IMG/VR virus record: IMGVR_UViG_3300021962_000091
Coordinates: 1-64,000 of that record
Source: a virus
Length of the DNA: 64,000 nt
Reading direction: 5' to 3' (one strand)
Made by a program: the position numbers and the translations under genes. The number at the start of each line of letters is the position of its first letter. Position 1 is the first letter of the stretch. Positions 14,632-44,828 of this stretch are shown here, piece by piece. The notes beneath the pieces are model-generated. The model made no database searches. It saw nothing but the letters and a program-made list of their open reading frames with translations, and had not been told where the DNA came from.

Positions 14632-17600
14632 TTACTCATCTAACGCAATCGCGCGCAGATTAGAAATTACTGGTACCGACACGGTATCGGCGGTATACGG
14701 GTCATTACCTTGCCCCGACCGCAACACAATTTTAATAGCAAATGTATGGAACCGTGTAAAGGTTGTGCCATTGGACGTATACGACGCGGTACTACCCACC
14801 GTCGTGTATTCGTATTCTCGCTTTGTTCGAGCGGACGTCGAATAGGCCGACGCTTGTTCGGGTTTGAGTTGCATCAAGACCCACGGTTTTTGTGCAAACG
14901 TCTCCGTGTCTCCCGTCGCCATCACCTTGTAATAGACTTCAATATTATGCTGCGGCCCTCGGCTGGCCGAGAGATAGACCTTCAAGTCCGACGCATCAAA
15001 CCCATCGGCCAAGCTAATCGCGCGTGTCGTGTATCGCGCTTTCTTCTCCCCAACAATCGCCGAATTTGGACTGGTTTCACCGACATACGTAAAGGTCGGT
15101 TGCACCGTGAAGTCCGTATTGGCCGCCAAAGAAATGACGGGGGTTTCGGTATACCCATATCCCGCATTTGCGACAGTGATGCTGGTGACATATCCCGTAC
15201 TGTTGGTCACGGCTGAAATTGTTGCGCCGGTACCGGTTGCGCTGGTGACTGTGAGGGGATAGGTATTCGGTGACGTTCCCGTTCCAGATGGCGTGCCTGT
15301 GGTAAACACAAACCCGTTGGCATATAAACACCCGTTATCAATATAATTTTCAATAGTTCTGACACTGGTGCGATCCACATCATATATCGGCGAAACGTGT
15401 GGGTTTGTGGTACGAAGCCGTGCGCGAACGCGAACCGATCCCGCAGTATTCGCACTTACTTCCATACGTTCAGGCATCACCAAGTTTTGATTGGGTATCA
15501 TTGTCAATGTCGAACTTGTACTATCAGTCGTCACGGTTGATACGGTAAACTGCGTATTATTACGAGTTGAGTCGAAGTCCAGATAATCCATGCCCACGTT
15601 CAACAAATCATACGACGCCGATTCAACCGAGTGATAGGTATTGTTTGCTAACTCGAATACCGCATATCCTTCGGAGGTCGCAAATTGGGCGCGATGGAGC
15701 ACGAACATCAAATCTTCCAGTGGCTCCGCCACCCATGTGCGCGCATTCTGTGATTTGAATAACGAACCTCCGTGGGGTTGTTCGGTAATAATAGCGGCAC
15801 TTCCAATCAGTTTCTTTCCAAGTTCGCCAACAAACACTTCATACTCGTTACTCTGAGAGAGCACGACTAACGCATACTCGGCATTGGGCGCCAAATATTC
15901 CGGTCGTTCAAACTCAAATCGCGTATAATGGTCAGCATTACCAATGTTTGGTGTTACACCCTCGGGCACCAGTTTAATTTTACTGGCCGGAAGTTCTACT
16001 TTAGCCAGTATCTCATCGGATGACGGATAGCCATTCACGGTACGACGCAGTTGCACCTCTACGGGCATACCACTTGTACCTTTTTTCGCAAAGAATAAGT
16101 CCGCGTGAGTTGCAAAGACCCCCTCGGGATACTGGTCATTTTGAACCACAAATGTTTGGGCTAATGGATCATAATACCCAACAGTCTCTGTGGTGGTCGT
16201 AGACTGATCGATGGTTGACGTACCGAACGTTTCAACCGTTCCAGTGATTCGACTATCAATTATTTGGCGCGTGCGAAGTAACGTGCGCTCTTTGGTTATA
16301 GTGGATCCCTGCGACACAAACGATTGACGGGCTTGAGAATCCGTATCACTGCTAATATTCATCAATTTGAAGATACGAGACCCCGTATTGAATTGCACCG
16401 AGCTACTAAGGGCGCGTTCATCGGGCGTCGTCGTCGGACGATATCCAGGCACACGGAACATTCCATAAAAAGTTCCGGGCACCACTAAAATACCAGTGCC
16501 CGTCGTGCTTGTCTCTGGGCGACCAATACTGTATCGAATCGGATGCGCGGTGGTATAACTAGTACGCTGTGCCGTAAACGCGTCCGTTGCTTCAGGCGAC
16601 AAGCTTTCTAATGTTACGGTGCGCGTGGCCGCATCGTAGCTTCGAATGGTTGCGGTGGTGCCGCCAACACCTGTTGGTGTATCAAGTACCGCAGGTCGAA
16701 GGAGACCCTCGTTTAAATTAATTCGGCTATTGTATCCACCATCCGTGAAGTAAATGACCTTTCCCGTATACGGATCGCCGGTTGTTGGAGCACCGGCATC
16801 TAATTGAACCGTCCAATATCCACCGGAGGAACCGACGGACTGTGCTCGTCCGTGCCAGTGCGTATATCCCGACACCGTGATGGAACTGGGCGCCGAGGAA
16901 CGGCTGGTTACATTAATAGTCGCGCCGGTAAATATCCCCGTCACGCCCGATACGTGCAATATTCCCGTGTTTCCACTCGTGCTAATACCGACAACTCGCG
17001 CGTCCCCACCGGCACTTGATTTAATAATATCGCCAATACGGAACGATTCAGCCGTGACAGCGGTTGTTGTTATTTCATTGGCACGTTCGACATAGGCAGT
17101 CACATCAATATCATCAAACGTCGCTTGAAGTTGTGCACCAGGCAACAATCCCCGCGCCGCAATGTCCACGTCGATGCCGCGCATTTTTGGCGCAATAGAG
17201 GTATCGACTATACGGTCCCCACCATCGGTCGTCGTAAATGAAAGACTTCGCTGTGTTTGTTGCAGTCGTCGGAAATTCGTCGTCGTCGTGGTTGTCGTTA
17301 ACGTCACATCTTGTTGAATTGGACGACCAAAATTAACGCCGTCGTCAACAAAAAAATCAAAACTTTCGACGTACTCTAACGGACCCCGTGTTTCGACCGG
17401 TGCACCCGTGGATGACGTAGACCAGTAATCCCAATGCGATTCAATGACCCCTTCAGCAACACCGTCGTTTTCATTAAATAAATTTAACGTAACGTCGGGG
17501 CGGGTAATTGTATCAATCCACGTATCACTGGAGGGCAACAACTCAATAGACCCGCGCCATGAAAACACGTTGAATGGGTTGATATTGACCGACTTTGACG

Positions 17601-20600
17601 CCAACGGCTGTTTTGTCAATATTTCGGTGGTGTAGGGTAGCGCAATCAATCCCGACCGCGCGGCCAGATGATTTGTGCCAAACGCTGCAACGTTTGATGA
17701 ATTGGTTGTATCTAACTGCACATTGTATGCACGATTGACTCGACCTAATGGACGCATTTCGTTATTGCGCGAATCAATGGCAATTTTGGTCTCGGGGTTT
17801 TTATAATTCACCACCCCGTGATTACTAAACATATCCGTGACAATACCATTCTTAAATCGCTCGTTATTGCTCTCATCAAACTCGGGACTGTTGAGCGACT
17901 GTAAGTCCATCGTGGATAGTGACGCATAGTATTCCAAATTTTCAATACGTTTTTCCAGTTTGCCAATATCTTTCATCGTGTATCGTTTGTATTCAAACGG
18001 CGTTACTGTCACAGCATCTGGGGTGGCGGTATAGGCCGGGAAATTTAAAATGTATAACGTAATCCCCGACGCAGAGTCTACAGGCATTTCAGGATTCTTA
18101 CTCGGCAATCCCGTAATGACTTGGAACCGCTTATCTTTTGTTACGACCAGCTTGTCAATACGCGGTAAGTAATACGCATAGTCGGCACGATACACTCCGT
18201 CAGCAATCGGCAATACCGTGGTTTCAAACGTCGTGTCGATTGAGTTGTACGGATTTGTGGCGGTATTCGCGTAGGTTAAGTTGGCGGCACGCACGGGACG
18301 GAAATCGACATAGTTGGCTAACGACACCGTATTACCCGTCTTGGGATTGATAAAGGACGGAATGTCTTCCAACTCCATTGCGGTATTGCTCGCCGTTCTA
18401 TAACTCGCCGGACTAAAATACGATAGGTTGGCAGCCGCGGCACTGTGCGCAAACATATCCACGACCACCAAGTACTGCGAACAGTTGGTGGTGTAATGCA
18501 CATACCCAGGCTTCAACGAAATGGATGCATGATCGTAGCACCAATCGCGCTGGCCCGTATCGAGCGTATATCGACTTGTGACATCGACGATTGCGGCGGC
18601 GTTGGTAGCAATTGTATTGGCATGTTTTACCGCGTATACTTTTTGCACACGATGCACATCGGCAATACCCAATCCAATCACCCCATTTGATGAGGTGTTA
18701 ATACTGTTAATCGCAATATGGCCTTTGTATGTTGTGGTACCGACATCGGACACCAAGTTTCCTGTCGCAACAGTTACACTCGACAGATTAGTATTACCCA
18801 CATATAACGTCTTTGTGCGAGGGGCGGTATTCGCATTACTTCGTTCCATTGGTGCATAGAAATGAAGCACCGATGATCCTGCCACTTGCGTGTTGGCAAA
18901 CTGCACCGTAATAGCTGCGGTAGATACGGCTGCGTTGGCCGTCACCAACGATAATACCTCACCGTTACTGTTACGCACCGCAATCATATGTCGCCATATG
19001 TCAAGCGTTTGGTCCGAGGACACTTCGCCGGCCGAAGGCGTGGCGTCAATGGTGAATCCAGTCACCCCTGTCGTACCCGCATTTCCCGTGACACTGCCCA
19101 CATAGCGCAACACCGAATAACTTTCGTCGCTCAATGAGGCGGGGTTAATCGGGGTTTCGCGATACTTAAACAACATGCCCGTCATGGTCGGTGACTGCAT
19201 CATGGTGTTCGCATTCGGGTCCAGCCCCACCTTTCCAAAGTAATGCACACTGGCACCCTTACTGGCGGCGTTGGAGTCGGCCATACCTCGAATACACTTG
19301 TCACTAAAAATCAGCGTGACATTCGCGGTGGTGTTAACTGTGGCTAACGACTGATCTGAAGCGAGCGTGAGCGTTTGTGTGCGACCCGTCGTGGCGTTTC
19401 CACTATACGTGGACGCCAGCACGGGGTAGCGAAGGGTCGCATTTTCAGTAGTGCGTAATTCAATAATAGCCCCCACATACGCATTGTTTGCCATGGCTAA
19501 TACTGACCCGTCAGATGACGCGGCATTTTGACTCAACACAATGGTTTTTGCGGTTGCATCCACCGCGACGGCCACGGTCAACCGACTATTGTTACCGGAC
19601 GCGTGTCCGCTGGTGTTGACTTGCAGCGTCTTGGTTTCAAACTCTGCGCCAATCAAATACATCTTATAGGTAGTGTTGGCATCACCAATACCCGAATAGT
19701 AGGCAAACCCACGGACGCGCGCCGAACCAATTTTACTCGAATGATAATTCCCCGACGTAGCATTAATCGCACTGGTATTGATGCCGGCAAACGGCACGCA
19801 ATGGAGTTCGGCCCGCTCTAACGTGTTGGTGTTGAACAACCCTTTGTTTAAGTTCACAATGGTATAAGGACCAAACGCGGTAGACTGTGCGCCATTATTA
19901 ATGTTCGCGGTGGTGCGAGCACGATTGGCCACCAGCTTGGTAGTGCCGGGGGTGCGCACTTCATACCCACGCACATACGCCACACCCTTCGACAATTCTA
20001 AATTGACTTTGTGGGGCGAAATAATGGTCGCGGGCGTATTGCTAAATTCTTGTGAAAACGCGTTGTTAACAATTAATACCGTATTATTTGTGACGGTCAC
20101 TACGTCACGAGATTCTCCGTTGACAACGAGCGTATCTCCAATAGCCACCTCAGAGGTAAACAACGTCGTTACATTGGCCGTTGACCCGTTGGCATACGTT
20201 ATTGATTGAACCGTATTGGCCGCGCTAATAACGGTGCTGGTTAAATTTCCGTTGATAAACCCCGTAATATTCGGAATCGACACCGGAGGATTGTGGTCTT
20301 TGACTTGTAACAAAAATGGACTTACAACGTAATCGCCCGATTCGTCATAGGTGCGGCGCGCCAACGTATCTTCAATAAACTCTTGCTGAAGTCGTTCGGG
20401 GATGGGTTGAATTATGCCCGCTTCAACGCGCAGTAATTCCACAAAATCCGCATCCGCATTAGGATCGATAGCATCATTTCGAATATCGCGGGCCACCAGT
20501 GTGGCGGTCAGTTTAAGACGATCTGCGCCAGGGCCGGCATAATTGGTTGTGCCCAGGGCGGGGTCGAGTAATGACTGATCTTCCAATGACGATACGATGG

Positions 20601-21255
20601 TTTCGGTGATCGCCAGACCAATGCGTTTTGATGGGCTATCCGTGGATAAACTTAAAATGATGGTTTGCTTTTGAACATCAACAAGATGTCCGCGCAAATA
20701 AAATACACCACTGGCTACCGAGAACGTACTGGCGGGCGTGGTTACTGGCGCCGTCGGTGTGCCTGGAGCCGCCACCATCGTCGCAATGGTGTCACCGCCC
20801 TCGATGGTCGAAAACTGAATACTCTCTCCACCTTCAAACTCGTTGACGTCCAATTTGGCGATCACAACGGCAGAATATGACGTACCCGTATTGGCGGTTA
20901 CCTGTGTAATAATACCCGTGGCGTTACTCGTGAGTCCTCGCACATAGGCACCAACAGCCGTCTCTGTATTATAAAAATTAGTAATATTTACCGACTCGTC
21001 GCGCGTCACATATAATGCGACACACGTATTCGATAACGTCTGCTGTCCGCCGCTAACGGCCGCACCCTCTCTATAAATGCTAGAGGTAACCTGTTCAACC
21101 TGATTTTGTAAAATGGATTGAATTTGGTTTAACTCACGCGTCTGTACTGGCACACGAGGCTTAATGAGCACTCGGTGAAACCGCTTATCGCGATTGTAAT
21201 CATCCCAGTAAGGCGAACTGCGTAAAACCTCTTGCGTTGTATTTGATAGCGGCAT
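14632..21255 (-). CDS. Giant baseplate/virion structural protein (DUF4815-like N-terminus)
   Basis: A 2207-residue protein, the largest in the window. The N-terminus (MPLSNTTQEVLRSSPYWDDY, then 'FHRVLIKPRVPVQTRELNQI' and 'QNQVEQVTSSIYREGA') is the pattern I associate with the DUF4815 structural proteins of T4-like cyanophages. The body is Thr/Asn-rich beta modules, including a 'GQRDWCYDHASISLKPGYVH' stretch and 'PLAQTFVVQNDQYPEGVFAT', which recurs in phage baseplate and fibre-attachment proteins. It follows gp8 in the minus-strand order, the place that gp9/gp10 occupy in T4, so it may combine peripheral baseplate and fibre-network roles. Gene density and codon use look like its neighbours, and I see no frameshift. 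Domain boundaries cannot be set by eye. Confidence 0.75.
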   Translation of the reverse strand: MPLSNTTQEVLRSSPYWDDYNRDKRFHRVLIKPRVPVQTRELNQIQSILQNQVEQVTSSIYREGAAVSGGQQTLSNTCVALYVTRDESVNITNFYNTETAVGAYVRGLTSNATGIITQVTANTGTSYSAVVIAKLDVNEFEGGESIQFSTIEGGDTIATMVAAPGTPTAPVTTPASTFSVASGVFYLRGHLVDVQKQTIILSLSTDSPSKRIGLAITETIVSSLEDQSLLDPALGTTNYAGPGADRLKLTATLVARDIRNDAIDPNADADFVELLRVEAGIIQPIPERLQQEFIEDTLARRTYDESGDYVVSPFLLQVKDHNPPVSIPNITGFINGNLTSTVISAANTVQSITYANGSTANVTTLFTSEVAIGDTLVVNGESRDVVTVTNNTVLIVNNAFSQEFSNTPATIISPHKVNLELSKGVAYVRGYEVRTPGTTKLVANRARTTANINNGAQSTAFGPYTIVNLNKGLFNTNTLERAELHCVPFAGINTSAINATSGNYHSSKIGSARVRGFAYYSGIGDANTTYKMYLIGAEFETKTLQVNTSGHASGNNSRLTVAVAVDATAKTIVLSQNAASSDGSVLAMANNAYVGAIIELRTTENATLRYPVLASTYSGNATTGRTQTLTLASDQSLATVNTTANVTLIFSDKCIRGMADSNAASKGASVHYFGKVGLDPNANTMMQSPTMTGMLFKYRETPINPASLSDESYSVLRYVGSVTGNAGTTGVTGFTIDATPSAGEVSSDQTLDIWRHMIAVRNSNGEVLSLVTANAAVSTAAITVQFANTQVAGSSVLHFYAPMERSNANTAPRTKTLYVGNTNLSSVTVATGNLVSDVGTTTYKGHIAINSINTSSNGVIGLGIADVHRVQKVYAVKHANTIATNAAAIVDVTSRYTLDTGQRDWCYDHASISLKPGYVHYTTNCSQYLVVVDMFAHSAAAANLSYFSPASYRTASNTAMELEDIPSFINPKTGNTVSLANYVDFRPVRAANLTYANTATNPYNSIDTTFETTVLPIADGVYRADYAYYLPRIDKLVVTKDKRFQVITGLPSKNPEMPVDSASGITLYILNFPAYTATPDAVTVTPFEYKRYTMKDIGKLEKRIENLEYYASLSTMDLQSLNSPEFDESNNERFKNGIVTDMFSNHGVVNYKNPETKIAIDSRNNEMRPLGRVNRAYNVQLDTTNSSNVAAFGTNHLAARSGLIALPYTTEILTKQPLASKSVNINPFNVFSWRGSIELLPSSDTWIDTITRPDVTLNLFNENDGVAEGVIESHWDYWSTSSTGAPVETRGPLEYVESFDFFVDDGVNFGRPIQQDVTLTTTTTTTNFRRLQQTQRSLSFTTTDGGDRIVDTSIAPKMRGIDVDIAARGLLPGAQLQATFDDIDVTAYVERANEITTTAVTAESFRIGDIIKSSAGGDARVVGISTSGNTGILHVSGVTGIFTGATINVTSRSSAPSSITVSGYTHWHGRAQSVGSSGGYWTVQLDAGAPTTGDPYTGKVIYFTDGGYNSRINLNEGLLRPAVLDTPTGVGGTTATIRSYDAATRTVTLESLSPEATDAFTAQRTSYTTAHPIRYSIGRPETSTTGTGILVVPGTFYGMFRVPGYRPTTTPDERALSSSVQFNTGSRIFKLMNISSDTDSQARQSFVSQGSTITKERTLLRTRQIIDSRITGTVETFGTSTIDQSTTTTETVGYYDPLAQTFVVQNDQYPEGVFATHADLFFAKKGTSGMPVEVQLRRTVNGYPSSDEILAKVELPASKIKLVPEGVTPNIGNADHYTRFEFERPEYLAPNAEYALVVLSQSNEYEVFVGELGKKLIGSAAIITEQPHGGSLFKSQNARTWVAEPLEDLMFVLHRAQFATSEGYAVFELANNTYHSVESASYDLLNVGMDYLDFDSTRNNTQFTVSTVTTDSTSSTLTMIPNQNLVMPERMEVSANTAGSVRVRARLRTTNPHVSPIYDVDRTSVRTIENYIDNGCLYANGFVFTTGTPSGTGTSPNTYPLTVTSATGTGATISAVTNSTGYVTSITVANAGYGYTETPVISLAANTDFTVQPTFTYVGETSPNSAIVGEKKARYTTRAISLADGFDASDLKVYLSASRGPQHNIEVYYKVMATGDTETFAQKPWVLMQLKPEQASAYSTSARTKREYEYTTVGSTASYTSNGTTFTRFHTFAIKIVLRSGQGNDPYTADTVSVPVISNLRAIALDE

Positions 21256-41622: not shown

Positions 41623-42543
41623 TTATTCGTCGTCAAACTTCGACAACCGCGAATCCACATCCTCATCCTCATCATCAGACACCGCAGGCGGCGTCCACGG
41701 GCGTGCAGCCGACGGCGCAGGTGCCGCCAGTTCTTCCGTGCGACCCAACGACCGACGCACGGGAGCTTCGCTAGGCGCATCGTTCGGGGTGAGATACGCA
41801 CTCGTATCAAACCCCATGACGCGATCCAACTTCTTCTTCAGGTCATCGTAGGCCTTGAACTTCTCGGGTGCCACGATCTCCGTGAGCGACCGCAGGTTGT
41901 TCAGGGTCTGAAGAATGGCCTTCTCGTCACCCTTCAGGAGCGGCGACGGTGACTCAAACACCGAGTCATCATAGTTGGGATACCCTGCCTGCTTCTTCTG
42001 ACGCAGACGGAAGTTGGCTCCCTCAATGACGTGGAACGGATCAAACGGCGTATCCTGCTCGTATTCCGGTTCGATGGCCTTCTTGATCTTCTCGAAAATC
42101 TTCTTGCCATAGCGGAACAGAAACACCTTGCCTTCATTCTCGGGGTTGCCCTTGTCCTGAATGACATAGATGTTGGACACGTAGGTCTGCTTACGGGACT
42201 GCTTGCGCACCTGATCGCGCAGGGCTTCGTCCTTCGTGCCCCACAGACGGCTGTTGTATTCGCCGAGCGGATCGTTCTCTCCGAGCGTGGTGCGGCTCAG
42301 CTCGATATACCAGCCATTCGGGCCTTCAAACGCATGACGATAGAACGTCACGAACGGCAACGACTCGGGAGGCGGTGCCGGCAGAAAACGAATAATGGCG
42401 CTGCCATTACCCGCCTTATCGACGGTCGGCTTCCAATAGCCTTCATCGGAGTTAGAGTTTTCCCCCGTGGTCGTTTTAACGGCGGCACGGAGCTTATCGA
42501 GCGAGGTGGATTTCAAAAGTGAGTGAAACTGTGACGGGGACAT
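41623..42543 (-). CDS. 32: Single-stranded DNA-binding protein gp32
   Basis: A 306-residue protein (T4 gp32 is 301). The core OB-fold pattern is clear: 'NGSAIIRFLPAPPPESLPFV', 'GWYIELSRTTLGENDPLGEY', 'RKQTYVSNIYVIQDKGNPEN' and EGKVFLFRYGKKIFEKI, then 'DPFHVIEGANFRLRQKKQAG' and YPNYDDSVFESPSPL. The C-terminus is acidic (DDEDEDVDSRLSKFDDE), as needed for interaction with replication and recombination partners. The Cys/His zinc site of T4 gp32 is absent, since no Cys occurs in the protein. It has its own sigma70-like promoter upstream and the shared terminator downstream. Confidence 0.93.
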   Translation of the reverse strand: MSPSQFHSLLKSTSLDKLRAAVKTTTGENSNSDEGYWKPTVDKAGNGSAIIRFLPAPPPESLPFVTFYRHAFEGPNGWYIELSRTTLGENDPLGEYNSRLWGTKDEALRDQVRKQSRKQTYVSNIYVIQDKGNPENEGKVFLFRYGKKIFEKIKKAIEPEYEQDTPFDPFHVIEGANFRLRQKKQAGYPNYDDSVFESPSPLLKGDEKAILQTLNNLRSLTEIVAPEKFKAYDDLKKKLDRVMGFDTSAYLTPNDAPSEAPVRRSLGRTEELAAPAPSAARPWTPPAVSDDEDEDVDSRLSKFDDE

Positions 42544-42904: not shown

Positions 42905-43471
42905 TTATAATCCATAAAATCGATGTTGCCCTACGGTCGCCACATACGTCAGGGTCTGTGACCACTTGGGAGAAATATCCACGCGATGAAAATGGGTCAC
43001 GGGATATTCTTCGGTAATTATATCACGTTCTCGCAGAAGTTGACGTGCCAATTGCACAAACGACGCCGGCGGACGGCGTGACCAGTTTCGATAATTCAAC
43101 GTCCATGAATACTGATACGGCTGATAGACGACGCCACACACGGACTGTGGATAATTCGCACTTGTCATGCGATTGAATACCGTGGCCGCCACCGCCACAA
43201 TTCCTTCATGCGGTTCGCCCCTCGCTTCAAAATAGAGATTCTGGGCCAAGCACACGATGGACTGTGTGGGTCGTTTGGGGGCCGCAGGAGTCTTGGTGGA
43301 TGGTCGTGCCGGCGCCGACGAGACCGGCGCCACGCGGGCATCGAGTCCGTCGCGCAGAACTCCAGCGGTGGACGTCTGTGCGGGGGACAACACATAGGCG
43401 GGCAGAAAGCATAGCAATACTATTCCACACGCCAACATACGACTTCCCCATATACGAAGTGCGTTGATCAT
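42905..43471 (-). CDS. SleB-type cell wall hydrolase (endolysin) with signal anchor
   Basis: A 188-residue enzyme. The N-terminus (MINALRIWGSRMLACGIVLL and onward) is a positively charged, hydrophobic signal anchor. After a Pro/Ala/Ser linker comes 'SIVCLAQNLYFEARGEPHEG', IVAVAATVFNRMTSANYPQS and VCGVVYQPYQYSWT, the cell wall hydrolase (SleB, Hydrolase_2) signature with the catalytic Glu in YFEARGE. The start at 43471 is chosen because AAAGGAG sits before it. A signal-anchor endolysin would reach the periplasm without a holin pore. A TATAGT box lies 30-40 bases upstream. The neighbour upstream is the tmRNA gene. Confidence 0.85.
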   Translation of the reverse strand: MINALRIWGSRMLACGIVLLCFLPAYVLSPAQTSTAGVLRDGLDARVAPVSSAPARPSTKTPAAPKRPTQSIVCLAQNLYFEARGEPHEGIVAVAATVFNRMTSANYPQSVCGVVYQPYQYSWTLNYRNWSRRPPASFVQLARQLLRERDIITEEYPVTHFHRVDISPKWSQTLTYVATVGQHRFYGL

Positions 43472-43550
43472 ACAAACTCCTTTCGAGGAAATGCGAACGA
43501 TTATCATACACTATACTCACTCACTGTACACGCGGTCGTGCCGCGCCAAT

Positions 43551-43583
43551 AAAAAATGCCGGGTTGGGTGCAGCGGAGCCGGC
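43551..43583 (-). terminator. Putative tmRNA terminator
   Basis: On the minus strand a GCCGG...CCGGC stem (43558-43583) is followed by six T residues (43551-43556). The loop is large (16 bases), so efficiency is uncertain. Confidence 0.5.
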
Positions 43584-43850
43584 GCGCTGTTGTGAACACT
43601 TCTGTTGCCAGGTGGCTCACGGGAACCCCTGATACCCGTAGGTATCAAGTAGCAGCACTAGGCTGCCATAGCGAACTGATATTGGTCAGTTCTGGGTGTC
43701 TCTGTTTAACGACAGCGACTTGTCGAGTGCCTCCATCGCATTCCAACTCCGCCGAATCGATTCTACGTCACCCCCGTAACTGGATTGGTGGAGGTGTCGG
43801 GCTCTGCCCCCGAGTCTTCTTGCGGTCAAACACGACTTCATCGAACACTA
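43558..43850 (-). ncRNA. ssrA: Circularly permuted (two-piece) tmRNA
   Basis: Transfer-messenger RNA for rescue of stalled ribosomes. Minus strand order is the 3' acceptor piece first. A T-arm-like TCGGG-GGCAGAG-CCCGA is followed by CACCTCCACCA, ending at 43786. A 10-base spacer (43776-43785) follows, then the 5' part starting GGGGGTGAC at 43775. CACCTCC pairs with GGGGGTG over all seven positions (one G-U), giving the acceptor stem with A-CCA, and 'GAATCGATTCGGCGG' resembles the conserved tmRNA GATTCGACGG. The tag frame ends GCT ATG GCA GCC TAG (stop at 43658-43660), encoding ...TDQYQFAMAA, a typical hydrophobic-Ala-Ala degron. An in-frame TAA at 43706-43708 limits the tag to at most 15 residues; the resume codon is uncertain. 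Serial hairpins follow, one including the stop codon. The permuted layout is known from alphaproteobacteria, cyanobacteria and some betaproteobacteria. Confidence 0.85.
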
Positions 43851-43862
43851 TACTCTATTTAG
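43847..43862 (-). promoter_or_regulatory. tmRNA promoter: CTAAATA late motif plus TATAGT
   Basis: CTAAATA (43856-43862) overlaps the stop of the upstream gene. TATAGT (43847-43852) follows and could act as a sigma70 -10. Either would start the tmRNA precursor just ahead of the acceptor piece. Confidence 0.5.
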
Positions 43863-44062
43863 ACGACCTCATCCCCAATATGTTCCTCGGGTGTGTCAAT
43901 CAACTCGTGGCCTTCCTCCAGATGCAGCACTGAGGCAATTTTGCTCACGGCGTCGGCAATGGCCTGATTGTTACCGGCAATATTGGCGTAGTAAATCTTC
44001 GTGATGATGCTGTCACACCACGCGTGATATTCTGCAATCGTGCGAAATTTTCCTCTCGGCAT
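43859..44062 (-). CDS. Small hypothetical protein
   Basis: A 67-residue acidic protein (MPRGKFRTIAEYHAWCDSII...) with one probable helix pair and an acidic end (EEGHELIDTPEEHIGDE). It begins 4 bases after the nuclease gene with AGGATAAC as ribosome site, so the two are co-expressed. I recognise no family. Its stop overlaps the late promoter motif before the tmRNA. Confidence 0.6.
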   Translation of the reverse strand: MPRGKFRTIAEYHAWCDSIITKIYYANIAGNNQAIADAVSKIASVLHLEEGHELIDTPEEHIGDEVV

Positions 44063-44066
44063 AGGG

Positions 44067-44828
44067 TTATCCTAACTGCGTGTTCACTAAGGTGGCAAAT
44101 TTGTCAATCCGTTCGCGCAACAACGGACGATGCACCGCCACATCACTTTCTTGCCAGAGAATACGATCCGGTAACAACTGCGCAATCACAATAGTATCAA
44201 TGATACCAGACTTCCAGTGTTCTGTCAACGCATCGGCATAAAACGCGGCTTGAATGCCGTAGTTCTGCAAGCGATTGCCGGTCTTCGGTTTTTTGCCGGT
44301 CTTGAAATCCAGAATCGCATACCGGCCGTCGTGCAACTGAATGGCCATATCCAAGCGACCCGCCAGCCCATACGTCGAGGACACCACCCGCGTTTCCGAG
44401 GCAATGACGGACGCAATCCGCGCATTCAACGTCTGCCCCAGCAACGCCGCATACGATATATCGTTGGGTTCGGTCAAATTGGCCCACGCCACGGGCTGTC
44501 GAGCGACGAACTGTTCGCAGAAGGTATGCCATTGCGTGCCTCGCCTTGCGGCGGTGGATGTAATGCGCGTCGCGGCGTCATGCCCCACGGCGGTGCGCCA
44601 CTGTTTCAACGCGTTATTGCCTTCGTCATCGGTGGCACTAATCATTGTCGTGATCGACGGATAGTATTCCCCCTGATACACATACCAACGTTTGCCGTCG
44701 CGCATCGTTTCATTGAGCGTGATCGGCAACGACACCGGCGCAAACGTAATCTGCGACGGCGGCAACACCGCCGCGTGCGGTGCCGGCTGAAACGGAATCG
44801 AGGTGGAGCGCCAGAGGGTCGTCGTCAT
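44067..44828 (-). CDS. PD-(D/E)XK nuclease (RecB/Cas4-like)
   Basis: A 253-residue protein. The nuclease core is 'RRGTQWHTFCEQFVA' (a conserved His near residue 100), then 'STYGLAGRLDMAIQLHDGRY' and AILDFKTGKKPKTG. The GRLD and DFKT motifs give the Asp...Asp-x-Lys catalytic set, followed by the conserved 'NYGIQAAFYADAL' (QxxxY-type motif IV). Such stand-alone exonucleases act in phage recombination or genome processing. A TATACT -10-like box lies about 10 bases upstream of the start. No helicase fusion and no Cys cluster like that of Cas4 are visible. Confidence 0.8.
   Translation of the reverse strand: MTTTLWRSTSIPFQPAPHAAVLPPSQITFAPVSLPITLNETMRDGKRWYVYQGEYYPSITTMISATDDEGNNALKQWRTAVGHDAATRITSTAARRGTQWHTFCEQFVARQPVAWANLTEPNDISYAALLGQTLNARIASVIASETRVVSSTYGLAGRLDMAIQLHDGRYAILDFKTGKKPKTGNRLQNYGIQAAFYADALTEHWKSGIIDTIVIAQLLPDRILWQESDVAVHRPLLRERIDKFATLVNTQLG

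Follow-up and report, generated by a model that had tools for sequence, protein, structure and literature searches.

A divergent two-piece tmRNA gene with a shared locus among related T4-like phages

Two-piece (circularly permuted) tmRNAs have already been described from phages. A survey of 18,146 phage genomes found tmRNAs in 402; their 133 unique structures included 53 of two-piece form, 50 of these from marine or aquatic phages (PMC9004378), and the 2025 tmRNA database contains 79 bacteriophage tmRNA sequences in all (PMC11915505). The closest described systems include the SsrA of Melnitz (Methylophilales phage EXVC044M, Kyanoviridae), an alpha-type permuted tmRNA in a T4-like phage, which its authors propose acts early in infection to keep the hijacked machinery running or to recycle host proteins (PMC9004378). 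The others are the Caulobacter-type permuted tmRNA of alphaproteobacteria, represented by the Rfam model RF01849, and the tmRNA_permuted family, RF04321 (PMC11915505). The gene analyzed here is a new, divergent member of the published phage two-piece tmRNAs. It lies in a stretch of 64,000 nt (the window; positions 1 to 64,000 of IMG/VR record IMGVR_UViG_3300021962_000091), and the 66.7-kb virus record is a fragment of a T4-like myovirus.

The window gene shares its locus with Melnitz, with a PDDEXK nuclease upstream in both phages; gp33, gp59, and a single-stranded DNA-binding protein follow in Melnitz. The two tmRNAs have no similarity at the blastn level, and the intervening segment between the two pieces is 142 nt long and contains an unannotated ORF in Melnitz but is only 10 nt long in the window. 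In Melnitz, a sigma-70-like -35 box precedes TATAAATA, whereas the window has no such box. With the Caulobacter type, the window gene shares the two-piece layout, the G3-U70 acceptor, a GGCAG-type T-loop, the 3' ACCUGGCAACAGAA domain, and a tag ending in -AA. It differs in being phage-borne, in a tag that starts (R)TDQY rather than ANDN, and in a late-promoter-like motif that appears to set the 5' end.

Gene and fold of the window tmRNA

The minus strand from 43850 to 43591 is a circularly permuted tmRNA gene, in which the acceptor piece comes first, then a 10-nt intervening segment, and then the coding piece. A cmscan of the whole window gave just two matches above the gathering score, both at this locus. 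RF04321 matched at 43849-43658 over its full length (model positions 1-213; 71.9 bits, E 7.4e-12, gathering score 47), and RF01849 (alpha_tmRNA) at 43903-43591 (68.1 bits, E 1.8e-16, gathering score 50); the latter ranked first in its clan there, with two lower same-clan matches dropped by the tool. The original prediction of a permuted phage tmRNA, for which a covariance-model search had been proposed as the check, was therefore borne out by both models, and the strand, which it had left out, can be added. ARAGORN missed the window tmRNA and called three close homologues (tags ATDTYQFAMAA, ATDNYQLAMAA, and DNYSYAMAA), and the RF04321 score of 71.9 in the window is below the 82-97 obtained in relatives. 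Two other IMG/VR contigs (L122 and L123) carry the same region at 99.7% identity over 371 nt; with two independent contigs holding this copy, the gene is not an assembly artefact. The window tmRNA is confirmed as real, far above chance. Its parts are as follows.

43786..43850, minus strand: acceptor piece (3' part of the mature tmRNA), from cmscan with helix arms checked by script; 5' end taken from the promoter motif
43849-43844, 43836-43832, 43825-43822, 43819-43817, minus strand: acceptor-piece P2 arms AGUGUU, GUCGU, CCGC, and GAA
43813-43797, minus strand: T-arm TCGGG-GGCAGAG-CCCGA, with a stem of 5 pairs (43813-43809/43801-43797) and loop GGCAGAG
43796-43786, minus strand: acceptor 3' end CACCUCCACCA, from the sequence
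43796-43790, minus strand: acceptor 3' strand CACCUCC, followed by A73 and a CCA ending at 43786
43776..43785, minus strand: intervening segment ATCCAGTTAC, 10 nt, from the sequence; predicted to be lost on maturation
43591..43775, minus strand: coding piece (5' part of the mature tmRNA), from the RF01849 cmscan match, 3' end by RF01849 alignment; contains the GGGGGUG acceptor strand, a tRNA-like D region, P2 partner arms, the tag frame, and the 3' domain
43775-43769, minus strand: acceptor 5' strand GGGGGUG, pairing 7/7 with CACCUCC, including G3-U70
43756-43754, 43752-43749, 43739-43735, 43731-43726, minus strand: coding-piece P2 arms UUC, GCGG, GCGAU, and GGCACU
43658..43690, minus strand: tag frame TDQYQFAMAA-stop (TAG), from the sequence and homologous tags

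The tRNA-like domain has seven acceptor pairs, five T-stem pairs, G3-U70, A73, and CCA; G3-U70 is the pair that marks tRNA-Ala and tmRNA for alanine. The predicted mature ends at 43786 (CCA) and 43775 (GGGGGUG), the 10-base spacer, and the seven acceptor pairs all agree with the sequence. The absence of TTC from the T-loop, which had been presented as unusual, is ordinary for this type, since many of the listed viral alpha-type genes have GGCAGTA-like loops and GGGGCAGTACCC-type arms are abundant among them; it is a common variant of alpha-type tmRNA and not a defect. The window's nearest relatives have the T-loop TTCGAAC, unlike its GGCAGAG, and its T-arm and D region diverge from theirs.

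The two pieces are joined by P2 helices, and the evidence for these is covariation across ten distinct sequences. In all ten, the outer P2 helix forms 6/6 pairs and its spacing from both CCA and GGGGG hardly changes, even though different bases make up the arms: AGUGUU/GGCACU in the window, GUAGCU/GGCUAU in L129, AUUGUC/GACAGU in L127, AUUGUC/GACAAU in L226, and ACAGUU/GACUGU in L131, with a single GU-to-AU step from L127 to L226. When arms were swapped between phages, a mean of 4.9/6 pairs remained (3-5 for the window's acceptor arm), and the mean duplex energy was -24.6 kcal/mol for matched and -19.1 kcal/mol for mismatched arms; in these tests the sequences share ancestry, and the arms of the pair counts were read by hand. 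The middle and inner P2 helices behave likewise and are mostly fully paired, with one mismatch in the middle helix of L214 and L213. Because MAFFT and covariance-model alignments misplace P2 between subfamilies, pairing was judged sequence by sequence, and the non-standard pairs marked for the window in the Rfam alignment reflect a different placement of P2 rather than a broken helix. That the joining helices have been rebuilt with different bases in each relative indicates that selection keeps the RNA.

The predicted tag frame ending in QYQFAMAA-stop was found at 43690-43658 on the minus strand, with codons ACT GAC CAA TAT CAG TTC GCT ATG GCA GCC TAG. The resume codon is uncertain, being either ACU at 43690 or AGA at 43693; AGA would be unusual. 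Homologous tags are (R)TDQYQFAMAA in L225, as in the window, (A)TDTYQFAMAA in L129, (A)TDNYQLAMAA in L128, (V)TDNYSYAMAA in L127, (R)TDNQFALAA in L213, (R)TDYQFALAA in L214, (R)KDNFALAA in L211, and (I)DNYSALPLAA in L131. The window frame ends in a hydrophobic residue, -AA, and a stop, and in all relatives read, the -AA end follows a hydrophobic or aromatic residue. Two hairpins in this region, compared by eye, have bases that vary in step: a tag-region hairpin (AACUGA...UCAGUU in the window, GUAACUG...CAGUUAC in L127) and a stop-codon hairpin (GCAGC/GCUGC, against GCGGC/GCCGC in L124).

Genomic context and expression

Genes of T4-like type in the record encode baseplate wedge and hub, tube cap, and tail proteins, gp32, a PDDEXK nuclease, and Hsp20; of the two proteins searched, neither the tail protein nor gp32 reaches 60% identity to any annotated phage. 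Among the baseplate genes is one for a 2207-aa protein (14632-21255, minus strand) that matches phrog_358 with 1091 bits, a match that assigns no function. The surroundings of the tmRNA are listed below.

44067..44828, minus strand: PD-(D/E)XK nuclease gene upstream of the tmRNA (PF12705, E 7e-9)
43859..44062, minus strand: 67-aa ORF between the nuclease gene and the tmRNA, without a family match; its TAA stop overlaps the CTAAATA motif
43856..43862, minus strand: CTAAATA, a late-promoter-like motif of T4 type; a 6-nt gap separates it from the start of the outer P2 helix
43551..43583, minus strand: terminator-like GCCGG...CCGGC followed by TTTTTT, just after the tmRNA (sequence, alignment)
42905..43507, minus strand: endolysin-like cell-wall hydrolase (Hydrolase_2; PF07486, E 3e-22; phrog_938) downstream of the tmRNA
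41623..42543, minus strand: gp32 single-stranded DNA-binding protein (PF08804, E 7e-42)

Searches of IMG/VR with gp32 and with a tmRNA-specific pattern yielded a family of homologues in which the tmRNA immediately precedes gp32. Same-locus homologues were found in L122/L123, L129, L128, L127, L131, L225, L226, and L210-L214. PDDEXK lies upstream of the tmRNA in eight relatives (L129, L131, L213, L222, L127, L225, L211, and L258). Downstream are the same cell-wall hydrolase in L129, L127, and L225, gp59 in L258, and gp32 in L131, L213, L222, L226, and L244; the order in the cultured phage Melnitz is PDDEXK, two small genes, ssrA, gp33, gp59, thyX, and the ssDNA-binding protein. This synteny suggests that the tmRNA locus is old and has been kept vertically in this branch of T4-like phages. 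By blastn with the window and L129 tmRNAs, no homologue of this lineage was found in the annotated phage collection. A family-specific DNA pattern searched in 84,980 prokaryote genomes gave two matches, neither with a tmRNA match, and a donor or host was thus not found. The original prediction of an alphaproteobacterial-type permuted tmRNA borne by a phage holds, given that RF01849 is the best of its clan and that the gene is set among T4-like baseplate, tail, and gp32 genes. Its further step from the RNA to the host group does not, because Melnitz infects a gammaproteobacterium (OM43) and yet carries an alpha-type tmRNA (PMC9004378), so the window's host group cannot be safely read from the tmRNA.

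The sequence MTAAATA occurs at 25 sites in the window against 13.9 expected, and 21 of these lie just upstream of a same-strand ORF start (expected fraction 0.10, p 1e-17), an association that no other permutation of TAAATA approaches. A T4-like late-promoter motif of the TATAAATA type is therefore present upstream of ORF starts, and MTAAATA is, to judge from sequence, the T4-type late promoter expected here. In front of the tmRNA, the motif is separated from the outer P2 helix by 6 nt in L129 and L131, as in the window, and by 5 nt in L127/L226; its position suggests that this promoter defines where the acceptor piece begins and makes late expression likely. L211, L213, and L214 instead have TATAAT 7 nt before the helix. 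The window clade would then express its tmRNA late and the other clade from a host-type promoter. On the 3' side, CAGCG/CGCUG pairs across GCCGG...CCGGC form a possible pseudoknot (43589-43551, minus strand), kept in L129, L128, L225, L127, L210, and L124, and most of the window and these six have a T run after it; the element could be a terminator or the last tmRNA pseudoknot. A consensus scan, with terminator loops limited to 3-8, returned no sigma-70 promoter and no terminator for the tmRNA.

Elsewhere in the window, MTAAATA lies 5-6 nt before ATG at seven sites: 36919 and 38541 on the plus strand, and 51879, 32691, 28247, 14628, and 1924 on the minus strand. These seven late mRNAs would be leaderless or nearly so, provided that the start site lies as in T4. 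Rescue of ribosomes on leaderless phage mRNAs had been suggested as a possibility; the late genes do look leaderless or nearly so, yet nothing ties them to the tmRNA.

The intervening segment as a small-gene slot

The intervening segment varies from 3 to 159 nt among homologues (93 nt in L127, 115 in L226, and 159 in L213) and at 10 nt is empty in the window. Phage two-piece tmRNAs are common, a general pattern scan of IMG/VR having given at least 120 matches; scans for permuted tmRNAs with segments of 120-150 nt and of 84-114 nt likewise gave at least 120 each. The matches listed contain 208 distinct long segments in 125 clusters. Among these, 28 clusters hold an ORF longer than in shuffles at p<=0.05 (6 expected), 165 of the 208 segments have a terminal inverted repeat of at least 6 (9 in shuffles), and ARAGORN predicts a tRNA inside two segments (Val in L254, Arg in L450). 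Seven ORF families have pN/pS of 0.12-0.37 in the predicted frame, denoting purifying selection, mostly with an excess of third-position change, and a Shine-Dalgarno-like GAGG or GGAG precedes the ATG of several intervening ORFs. Long segments are thus found in many phage permuted tmRNAs, Melnitz included, and often hold a small protein-coding ORF; there are several such families, unrelated to each other and located inside the terminal inverted repeat. One family has a frame, ...YYYTPSEWSRSIGWG.VPDERN..., that is stop-free from the acceptor piece across the intervening segment and into the coding piece, and may be a protein frame overlapping the tmRNA in sense.

L213 (minus strand, upstream of 10535), L215, L218-L220, L224, L228: intervening small ORFs
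L352 (Melnitz), 1317-1458: intervening segment of SsrA with an unannotated ORF, predicted product MFKWLSKTRLVVITRDYFRERNRKADAKIPKYLSG...
L249, L253, L255, L236, L237, L259, L296, and others: intervening small ORFs
L239, L240, L268, L270, L275, L276, L280, L282, L291, L292, L300, L309, L344: carriers of the sense-overlapping frame

No convincing match to the intervening ORFs was found in PHROGs. The literature searched, mostly without subscription papers, yielded no report of protein genes in tmRNA intervening segments; the tmRNA database paper speaks of a tRNA and of a repetitive element within intervening sequences, but of no proteins (PMC11915505). On balance, we favor the view of the permuted-tmRNA locus in phages as a conserved cargo site, in which the discarded segment is reused as a slot for unrelated small proteins, and sometimes a tRNA, inside a terminal inverted repeat. 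One transcript would then give both a ribosome-rescue RNA and a mini-mRNA. The window would represent the empty state and the L213 type, from the same group and with the same PDDEXK-gp32 synteny, the filled one. Immediately downstream of the permuted tmRNA, two of these loci have a glutamine riboswitch (RF01739; L236, 1019-1072, and L259, 1303-1351, both minus strand), as also reported for Melnitz.

Proposed function and rival explanations

The reading that best accounts for these observations, with a probability of about 0.83, is a working phage-encoded two-piece alpha-type tmRNA, passed on within a group of T4-like phages at one fixed locus. The gene would probably be transcribed late as its own short unit, from the T4-type late promoter to the terminator; an early role was proposed for the Melnitz tmRNA (PMC9004378), whereas the window motif points to late. 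In the precursor, host tRNA-processing enzymes would cleave behind CCA (43786) and ahead of the G at 43775, leaving two pieces that the acceptor stem and three P2 helices keep together. The acceptor would be charged by host AlaRS via G3-U70. No SmpB gene was found in the record or in eleven related records, which are fragments and make this absence weak evidence; the tmRNA would accordingly use host SmpB, which would load the charged RNA onto stalled ribosomes. Translation would move on to the (R)TDQYQFAMAA frame, freeing the ribosome and giving the stalled product an -AMAA end for host proteases. The benefit may be that ribosomes stay in use while mRNAs of host and phage are being cut or damaged.

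An RNA that mimics host tmRNA and binds AlaRS or SmpB could instead block or redirect host rescue without tagging. A tag-less phage form (DS6A) that inhibits host tmRNA is cited in PMC11915505, and the divergence of the T-arm and D region in the window would fit such a role. A decoy would not need a tag, however, and relatives keep the frame, its stop, and its hydrophobic -AMAA end, using different codons and conserving a hairpin, which makes this explanation improbable. It is less probable still that the locus serves mainly as a regulatory or processing unit, controlling its neighbors or releasing upstream mRNA by its tRNA-like ends, with tagging secondary. The glutamine riboswitch after the tmRNA in related loci and the position of the gene between conserved replication genes would suit that idea, but a terminator-like element stands directly 3' of the tmRNA, and the tag and tRNA-like identity elements are conserved. 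Least probable of all, by a small step, is a decaying, functionless copy of a recently captured host gene. Although the covariance-model score below those of relatives and the ARAGORN miss could be taken as signs of decay, the three P2 helices, acceptor stem, T stem, and tag frame are intact with compensatory changes, the locus is common to distant T4-like phages, and the family-specific pattern brought up no clear bacterial tmRNA in the 84,980 genomes.

The window thus provides a tmRNA locus of divergent sequence that one branch of T4-like phages has retained, its structure backed by covariation. It also cautions against inferring a host group from a phage tmRNA. Small protein genes within the segment that phage permuted tmRNAs discard would amount to a new type of gene arrangement. 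The tie of the tmRNA to a late-promoter motif makes viral ribosome rescue testable, with phage-specific tags predicted late in infection.
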